Source of the DNA: Stappia sp. WLB 29
GTDB taxonomy: Bacteria; Pseudomonadota; Alphaproteobacteria; Rhizobiales; Stappiaceae
NCBI RefSeq assembly: GCF_023507705.1
Contig: NZ_JALBGD010000001.1
Location: 372,001 to 436,000 of the forward strand
Length of the DNA: 64,000 nt
Reading direction: 5' to 3'
Both the position numbers and the translations under genes were made by a program. Positions 25,850 to 53,231 of the stretch are shown here, one piece after another; the first letter of the stretch is position 1, and the number at the start of each line of letters is the position of its first letter. Under the pieces are notes generated by a model that saw nothing but the letters and a program-made list of their open reading frames with translations, ran no database searches and had not been told where the DNA came from.

Positions 25850-25864
25850 GAACAAGGCAGGAAC
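25850..25864. promoter_or_regulatory. LexA box 1 of the lexA promoter
   Basis: GAAC-N7-GAAC, the exact reverse complement of the alphaproteobacterial LexA site GTTC-N7-GTTC. It fills the spacer of a likely promoter (TTGTGG at 25845-25850, 17 bp, TAGACT at 25868-25873), where LexA binding would block RNA polymerase. Confidence 0.85.
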
Positions 25865-25974: not shown

Positions 25975-26691
25975 ATGTTGACGCGCAAGCAGCACGAATT
26001 GCTCCTGTTCATCCACGAGAGGCTGAAGGAAACCGGCGTTCCTCCCTCGTTCGACGAGATGAAGGACGCGCTCGACCTGCGGTCCAAATCGGGCATCCAC
26101 CGGCTGATCACCGCGCTGGAGGAGCGCGGCTTCATTCGTCGCCTGCCCAATCGTGCCCGCGCGTTGGAGATCGTCAAGCTGCCGGAATCCGTCGCGCCGG
26201 GCCTTGCCTCGCAGCGCGGCCAGGGCTTCTCGCCCTCCGTCATCGAAGGTTCCCGGGGCAAGACGCCGCCGGTGGAACGGGTCCCCGCCCCGCCGCCCGC
26301 GGCCAACGACAGCGTCGAGATCCCCGTCATGGGCCGCATCGCCGCCGGCGTGCCGATCGAGGCGATCCAGTCCCACAGCCACACCATCGCCATGCCGGCC
26401 GACCTGCTCGGAAACGGCGATCATTACGCGCTGGAAGTGCGCGGCGATTCCATGATCGAGGCAGGCATTCTCGACGGCGACACCGTGGTGATCCGACGCT
26501 CCGACAGCGCCGACAGCGGCGACATCGTCGTCGCCCTGATCGACGACGAGGAAGCGACGCTGAAGCGCCTGCGCAAGAAGGGCGCCTCCGTTGCACTGGA
26601 GGCCGCCAATCCGGCCTACGAGACCCGCATCTTCGGCCCTGGCCGCGTGCGCATCCAGGGCAAGCTCGTGTCGCTGTTCCGCCGCTACTGA
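25975..26691 (+). CDS. lexA: LexA, SOS response repressor
   Basis: Repressor of DNA-damage genes that cleaves itself when RecA is activated. The 238-aa protein has the N-terminal winged helix ([20 protein letters not shown]; recognition region [20 protein letters not shown]) and a C-terminal S24 protease-like domain. Cleavage site Ala124-Gly125 lies in [11 protein letters not shown], the nucleophile Ser159 in [11 protein letters not shown] and Lys197 in EEATLKRL. The start MLTRKQ is the conserved N-terminus; an ATG ten codons upstream is rejected. Two LexA boxes precede it, so it is autoregulated. Confidence 0.98.
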
Positions 26692-48098: not shown

Positions 48099-51539
<3,441 letters not shown>

Positions 51540-51758: not shown

Positions 51759-51875
51759 TCAGGCGGTCAACAGTTCGGCGATGGCGCTGCTCCACAGCAG
51801 CATGGTGGTGCCGAACAGGGTCAGTGCCGCCAGTGCGGCCAGGTCCTGAAAACTGTCGCGGAACTCATCGAACAT
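51759..51875 (-). CDS. Candidate SOS-induced 38-aa single-pass membrane protein
   Basis: A 38-codon gene: a charged, acidic start (MFDEFRDSFQD), one hydrophobic helix at about residues 12-32 (LAALAALTLFGTTMLLWSSA) and a short end (ELLTA). AAGGGAGG lies 6 nt before the ATG, an excellent ribosome site. Upstream are two perfect LexA boxes and a promoter (TTGCAC, 17 bp, CATACT). The size, membrane topology and LexA control recall Caulobacter SidA, an SOS-induced 29-aa division inhibitor, but sequence similarity is not claimed. Function is unknown; toxin-like or division-inhibitor roles are inferences. dnaE is the next gene on the strand. Confidence 0.7.
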   Translation of the reverse strand: MFDEFRDSFQDLAALAALTLFGTTMLLWSSAIAELLTA

Positions 51876-51894
51876 GGTAGCCTCCCTTACCCAG

Positions 51895-51909
51895 GAACTC
51901 TCGGTGAAC
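51895..51909. promoter_or_regulatory. LexA box, promoter-distal copy, upstream of the 38-codon gene
   Basis: GTTC-N7-GTTC on the minus strand, all eight consensus positions, 20 bp ahead of the 38-codon gene's ATG and downstream of the putative -10 element. Together with the next box it forms a tandem operator. Confidence 0.85.
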
Positions 51910-51922
51910 TCTCGATAATCCG

Positions 51923-51951
51923 AGTATGTTCATGTTTTGTTCTTTGTGCAA
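51923..51951 (-). promoter_or_regulatory. SOS promoter with LexA box in its spacer
   Basis: On the minus strand TTGCAC and CATACT are separated by 17 bp, and a perfect LexA site (GAAC-N7-GAAC read on the minus strand, 51928-51942) overlaps the spacer. The lexA promoter of this window has the same layout: one box in the spacer and one after the -10. The two sites share the stretch ATGTTCATG.TTTGT.C. Confidence 0.8.
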
Positions 51952-52508: not shown

Positions 52509-53231
52509 TCAGAGCTCGATGATCTGCTGGTCGCGCAAGGTGATGCGGCGGTCCATGCGGCCCGCCAGCTCCATGTTGTGGGTGGCGATCAGCGCGGCAA
52601 GGCCGGAGGCACGAACGAGCGCCACCAGCGCGTCGAAGACATAGCCGGAGGTACCGGGATCGAGATTGCCGGTCGGCTCGTCGGCCAGCAGGATGCGCGG
52701 CGCATTGGCGACGGCGCGGGCAATCGCCACGCGCTGCTGCTCGCCGCCCGACAGCTCCGACGGGCGATGGCTCGCCCGGTTGCCGAGACGCATGTAATCG
52801 AGCAGCTGGCTCGCCCGCTCCTCCGCCTCGCGCTTGTCGAGCCCGCGGATCAACTGCGGGATGACGAGGTTCTCCAGCGCCGTGAACTCGGGCAGCAGAT
52901 GGTGGAACTGGTAGACGAAGCCGAGCTCGGTGCGGCGCATGCGCGTGCGTTCGGCATCTTCCATGCTGCCGCAGGCCAGCCCGCCGACATAGACCTCGCC
53001 GCTGTCGGGCCGCTCCAGCAGGCCGGCGATATGCAGCAGGGTCGACTTGCCGGCGCCCGAAGGGGCGACCAGGGCGACGAGCTCGCCCGGATGCAGCGCG
53101 AGGTTGGCATCGACCAGGATGTCGAGCTTGCCCTCGCCCTCGCGAAAGCTGCGGTTGATGCCGGCAAGCACCAGCGGCAGGTCGCCGAGTGCGTCGGTCA
53201 GGGCCTGGTCCTGTTCGTGAGCCATGGTCAT
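52509..53231 (-). CDS. lolD: LolD, lipoprotein-releasing ABC transporter ATPase
   Basis: Cytoplasmic ATPase of the Lol system that extracts lipoproteins from the inner membrane. The 240-aa protein has Walker [10 protein letters not shown], the signature [14 protein letters not shown], Walker [13 protein letters not shown] and the switch His in ATHNMELA. Its ATG overlaps the lolC/E stop (ATGA), so the pair is coupled. The upstream MTM start was used because of that overlap. Confidence 0.96.

Follow-up and report, generated by a model that had tools for sequence, protein, structure and literature searches.

A 38-codon gene between lolD and dnaE of Stappia sp. WLB 29 as a probable SidA-family inhibitor of cell division in the SOS response

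Between lolD and dnaE of Stappia sp. WLB 29 lies an open reading frame of only 38 codons, preceded by a promoter-like sequence and two LexA-type boxes, which raises the question of whether it is a gene in its own right and, if so, what its product would do after DNA damage. The promoter, the two boxes, the Shine-Dalgarno-like sequence AAGGGAGG and the frame had been picked out in a reading made from the letters alone (the sequence-only reading), and all were confirmed in place on the minus strand of the window, by which we mean the whole 64,000-nucleotide stretch of DNA that was analysed (Table 1). The one correction concerns the spacing from the Shine-Dalgarno-like sequence to the start codon, which is 5 nt and not the 6 nt given in that reading.

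Table 1. Features of the lolD-dnaE interval and its two flanking genes, in positions of the window
Feature	Position	Strand	Basis or remark
lolD	52509..53231	-	upstream neighbour, same strand
-35 hexamer TTGCAC	51946..51951	-	sequence
Box 1, GAACAAAACATGAAC, LexA-type	51928..51942	-	perfect GTTC-N7-GTTC match
-10 hexamer CATACT	51923..51928	-	sequence; 17-bp spacer from -35
Box 2, GTTCACCGAGAGTTC, LexA-type, opposite orientation	51895..51909	-	perfect match; downstream of -10, 18 bp from box 1
Shine-Dalgarno-like AAGGGAGG	51881..51888	-	sequence; 5 nt ahead of the peptide ATG
Peptide gene, 38 codons, probable SidA family, product MFDEFRDSFQDLAALAALTLFGTTMLLWSSAIAELLTA	51759..51875	-	frame, conservation and predicted helix; ATG at 51875, stop codon ends at 51759
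dnaE	48099..51539	-	downstream, same strand; 219 nt past the peptide stop

The 38-codon frame is a real gene under purifying selection. As a check, the sequence-only reading had proposed comparing the lolD-dnaE gap among relatives, and that comparison bears the frame out: its length is 38 codons in all 14 genomes of the genus (our own genome counted), and among nine genus representatives (36 pairs) the mean pN/pS is 0.45 in frame, compared with values of 1.04 and 1.99 when the reading frame is shifted. The pairwise difference among the same nine representatives is 0.31, 0.16 and 0.46 at codon positions 1, 2 and 3, respectively, and three sister genomes encode an identical peptide from DNA that differs by silent changes only. 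AlphaFold2 modelled the 38-aa product as one helix spanning residues 2-37 (mean pLDDT 93.6), consistent with a very short, single-helix hydrophobic peptide for which a membrane location is predicted. None of 14 members of the peptide family matched Pfam, one of the 14 matched NCBIfam weakly (YmiC, E 0.043), no PDB chain matched the family up to E 1, and a search of PHROGs returned three weak single matches.

Box 1 fills the spacer of the promoter and has one base in common with the -10 hexamer. A perfect GTTC-N7-GTTC box, searched for within 820 nt, is present in all 14 genomes of the genus and in 47 of the 59 relatives. Box 2 occurs in four of the 14 genus members. Judged by this distribution, box 1 is an old, conserved candidate operator and box 2 is apparently recent, and the pair of boxes, on which the sequence-only reading had placed weight, was dropped as a defining trait because so few members of the genus have the second. 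The promoter geometry around the box is also widespread. Among the 47 related genomes with a box, TTG stands at the exact -35 place in 39 and near it in 45, and CATnnT occurs at the end of the box (the -10 place) in 27; among 20 box-bearing genomes sampled from the class, TTG is exactly placed in two and nearby in 17, with CATnnT in six, the exact TTG spacings being few there because the spacing is mostly longer. In place of box 2, six other relatives carry an inverted perfect box at a distance of exactly 75 bp on the upstream side of the box that belongs to the peptide; it could be either a second operator or the operator of another gene.

A perfect GTTC-N7-GTTC match by itself is weak evidence. 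The genome contains 114 matches versus 80 for a reversed-pattern control, and the window contains seven versus 1.41 expected from shuffles. Other perfect boxes in the window lie at 2319, 13802, 26038 and 39867, the one at 26038 falling inside lexA, and, apart from those before the peptide gene, no perfect box in the window has a hydrophobic frame of 22-60 aa within 135 nt downstream. The LexA gene itself is in the window (DNA-binding domain at 25975-26163, plus strand), with a LexA-type box upstream at 25850-25864 through which lexA is probably autoregulated. We examined 20 box loci of this genome, picked among the matches listed and leaning to A/T-rich spacers, and found boxes preceding lexA, tag, dinF and a pair of ligase-associated exonuclease and helicase genes that are divergent, facing away from each other. 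By the look of its upstream sequence, the peptide gene fits the LexA regulon of its own genome. Boxes also lie beside genes for an HhH-GPD protein, a radical-SAM protein and a DUF5131 protein, which are candidate SOS genes.

How widely is the peptide distributed? A whole-genome profile search with the peptide gave a match, at E up to 5, in 196 of 289 genomes, but a search with so short a peptide returns mostly noise, and the census was therefore tied to the position upstream of dnaE. For relatives, regions upstream of dnaE came from 59 of 61 genomes, one of the other two (G042) giving no dnaE match and the other (G052) a partial one. For the class, we took 80 such regions, best matches first among the matches listed for 216 genomes with a dnaE match, and added four loci from the whole-genome peptide-profile search; the resulting sample of 84 is not random, some same-genus or contig-end cases were skipped, and three of the regions fall short of 1 kb. 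We found a hydrophobic frame of 22-60 aa behind a perfect box in 43 of the 59 relatives and in 18 of the 84 genomes from the class, counts in which the first frame listed is, for a few genomes, another, overlapping frame. The rate of this combination was 0.000 in 20 rounds of dinucleotide shuffling of the dnaE-upstream regions, and on their opposite strand it occurred in none of the relatives and none of the class genomes.

More specific than this count is a profile of the peptide family, which scored at least 8 bits in 49 of the 59 relatives and in 19 of the 84 genomes from the class; among 631 frames on the opposite strand, the highest score was 4.7 bits. The profile was built from 45 peptides, mostly from the same genomes that were searched, and 24 of the 68 positives were not part of it, some of these being nearly identical to peptides that were. 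The 49 positive relatives comprise every one of the 37 genomes that belong to the same family as the window and 12 of 22 from other families of the order, for which the name used in the sequence-only reading, Hyphomicrobiales, agrees with the relatives that are named. The sequence-only reading had taken the gene to be lineage-specific, and that view was rejected, as the peptide family recurs at the same locus across the order and also in further groups within the class. At 8 bits, 65 of the 84 class genomes have no family peptide upstream of dnaE, and the plasmid-borne dnaE genes of Rhodobacter sp. CZR27, Cereibacter sphaeroides and Methylobacterium bullatum have neither a perfect box nor a hydrophobic frame upstream.

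Box and peptide occur together. Across the 143 regions, 63 have both a perfect box and the peptide, five the peptide only, four the box only and 71 neither (Fisher p 4e-29, in a test that ignores relatedness); when one mismatch was allowed in A-rich boxes, the corresponding numbers were 67, one, seven and 68. Perfect boxes were found on the opposite strand in 10 of the 143 regions and relaxed boxes in 14, so that a lone box means little. Boxes that outlasted the frame would, according to the sequence-only reading, have marked the site as a mere dnaE leader; 63 of the 67 genomes with a perfect box have the family peptide at 8 bits or more, and of the other four, three fall near the threshold (7.1, 7.1 and 7.6 bits) and one (G045) is without a candidate, an outcome that favours a gene at this site. 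The only peptide lacking any box, in genome G032, has a frame cut to 23 aa, and its near relatives have the box and the full frame, an apparent case of joint decay of box and peptide. These results also bear on the idea that the frame arose by chance next to a LexA operator serving dnaE alone. Perfect boxes are indeed common in this genome, at 114 versus 80 in the control, but the coding selection, the fixed length of 38 codons, the shuffle rate of 0.000 and the association of box with peptide leave that idea a very slim chance of being right, and we dropped it.

All 15 named Caulobacteraceae genomes have a small hydrophobic frame in the same slot ahead of dnaE. As listed, it measures 29 aa in five of them, Caulobacter sp. 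Root1455 being one; in C. vibrioides OR37 the same length results from a start at an internal ATG, and there the frame is flanked by dnaE and by a divergent nucleoside hydrolase gene (PF01156, E 1e-78). The upstream box is perfect in nine of the 15 and has one mismatch in the remaining six. A further genome considered as a possible Caulobacter (G097) was rejected, its MipZ being just partly like Caulobacter MipZ. In the CC numbering, sidA is presumably CC1927. CC1926 is one of the dnaE copies of C. crescentus (PMC1839093), sidA is CCNA_02004 (PMC10769358) and CCNA_02005 is an inosine-uridine nucleoside hydrolase (PMC3667746); SidA is described as a 29-aa, LexA-controlled inner-membrane division inhibitor that acts on FtsW (PMC4211646). 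Because the length of 29 aa, the LexA box, the gene number and the adjoining nucleoside hydrolase all agree, we infer that the Caulobacter dnaE-upstream peptide is SidA, an identification made through these features and not through SidA's own sequence. In the literature accessible to us, we came across no account of SidA outside Caulobacter.

The slot before dnaE, the LexA-type box, a length of 29-40 aa and one hydrophobic helix are common to SidA and the peptides described here, and the sequence-only reading, which proposed a small membrane-peptide gene with a LexA-type operator and drew the parallel with SidA, agrees with length, helix, box and locus. To compare the peptides themselves, we used hand-picked alignments of 26 peptides from the order, nine of the 15 from Caulobacteraceae and ten from other groups, with near-duplicates and some weak members omitted. 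In hhalign, the order profile scored 19.3 against the Caulobacteraceae profile, the best of 300 column shuffles being 18.8, a direct similarity that is marginal. The ten peptides from other groups bridge the two sets, scoring 33.4 against Caulobacteraceae (shuffle maximum 16.8) and 40.5 against the order (shuffle maximum 18.5), matches that are favoured by the ten having been chosen by hand. When the order profile was applied to single peptides, six of the nine from Caulobacteraceae beat every one of the decoy frames (130 scored) and membrane segments (339 scored), the best of which reached 6.9, only one of the nine (14.2) beat all 1737 scored shuffled peptides (best 12.4), and the three remaining, at 5.1, -0.2 and -3.4, were not above the decoys. 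The motif [RK][DE]..A[LF].S is present in both the window peptide and the Caulobacter peptide, which are linked through intermediates.

The two peptides also differ. The window peptide has 38 aa versus the 29 of SidA, the C-terminal half of its helix is different, and its N-terminus, in contrast to that of the Caulobacter peptide, is acidic, so that a shared topology and a shared target are not assured. It is in this light that an SOS membrane peptide acting on something else, for example one that lowers membrane potential, has to be weighed. TisB and DinQ are peptides that lower membrane potential and offer parallels to an SOS membrane peptide. Single-helix SOS peptides exist in Escherichia coli (DinQ: PMC3567139), and the acidic N-terminus, unlike that of the Caulobacter peptide, would suit such an alternative; we nevertheless consider it improbable, given that the locus, the box and the motif are common to the window peptide and the Caulobacter peptide by way of the intermediates.

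Of 30 loci, seen in stretches of ~3.1 kb, 20 have lolD next to the peptide. dnaE is among the genes reported to be SOS-regulated in Caulobacter and was recovered in a comparative analysis of alphaproteobacteria (PMC3323433). The LexA site behind this published "LexA-regulated dnaE" is probably the same operator as the box before the peptide, and it is plausible that dnaE is on the same transcript as the peptide and comes under shared LexA control.

A translated counterpart may already have been recorded in a rhizobium. In S. meliloti Ak57, the gap between lolD and dnaE contains two overlapping perfect boxes, a Shine-Dalgarno sequence and a 28-aa frame, MADFVRDLAAFASMSLFIVSISVIALGL, at whose slot no gene is listed in a gene table known to be incomplete; in the corresponding slot, the same peptide is encoded by Sinorhizobium sp. 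K101, and a related one by Shinella sp. PSBB067. One S. meliloti record of 3.7 Mb (CP090106.1), which bears the label plasmid pSymB, carries dnaE, lolD-like and proS genes and is therefore probably a mislabelled chromosome. Ribo-seq of S. meliloti 2011 identified a translated sORF25 in the dnaE1 5'-UTR, placed among possible uORFs, in a paper whose main text contains none of the words SOS, LexA and SidA (PMC10117765). By its position, sORF25 is probably the 28-aa family frame of S. meliloti, the main text giving no sequence.

The published placing of sORF25 among possible uORFs (PMC10117765), the position of our frame 219 nt ahead of dnaE on the same strand and the listing of dnaE as LexA-regulated (PMC3323433) would all suit an upstream frame or leader whose translation or RNA tunes dnaE expression, with the peptide idle in trans. 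Conservation, however, extends beyond the mere presence of a frame to the amino-acid sequence and the hydrophobic helix; the distance from peptide to dnaE varies widely, from about 38 to 522 nt for the frames listed across the dnaE-upstream regions; a simple scan for promoters and terminators found no terminator-like site; and the Caulobacter slot holds the presumed SidA, which acts in trans. We therefore regard a leader function of this kind as unlikely. The same scan found no promoter, not even TTGCAC-17-CATACT, and so says little about a separate dnaE promoter.

Our analysis suggests that the peptide gene, perhaps co-transcribed with dnaE, probably encodes a SidA-family peptide that inhibits division as part of the SOS response of this bacterium. 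LexA bound to the box within the promoter spacer would block transcription, DNA damage would remove LexA and allow the 38-aa peptide to be made, and the peptide would then insert into the inner membrane as one helix. Like SidA, it might keep the FtsW/FtsI/FtsN complex inactive, such that no septum would form until repair is done, and its transcript may continue into dnaE. Inhibition of FtsW, FtsI and FtsN is the published mechanism of SidA (PMC4211646), and a recent modelling study placed SidA on FtsW with low confidence (PMC13396833); that division-inhibiting activity extends outside Caulobacter is suggested by analogy with SidA.

More tentatively, and with somewhat more doubt than confidence, we propose that SidA represents an old alphaproteobacterial SOS checkpoint, in which a sidA-dnaE unit under one LexA operator would couple division arrest to polymerase supply, that "LexA-regulated dnaE" and the small frame in the S. 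meliloti dnaE1 leader are this same unit, and that the unit supplies the SOS division inhibitor of rhizobia. If this is true, one conserved locus marks where to seek the DNA-damage division inhibitor of rhizobia and other alphaproteobacteria; three published observations (SidA, LexA control of dnaE and a translated sORF in the dnaE1 leader) would be united; and dozens of natural variants would be at hand to map how a helix of ~30 residues stops FtsW.

The locus invites comparison with several known systems. The published LexA-regulated dnaE likewise has a LexA site upstream of dnaE, and the accessible part of that paper names dnaE as the target and mentions no small gene (PMC3323433). sORF25 resembles the family peptide as a translated small frame before dnaE1, and differs in having been published as a possible uORF and not as an SOS gene. 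DidA differs in being 71 aa long and SOS-independent and YneA in having a LysM domain, and yet both, along with SosA and ChiZ, are damage-induced small membrane division inhibitors (PMC4211646, PMC13396833) to which, by description, the peptide upstream of dnaE can be likened.
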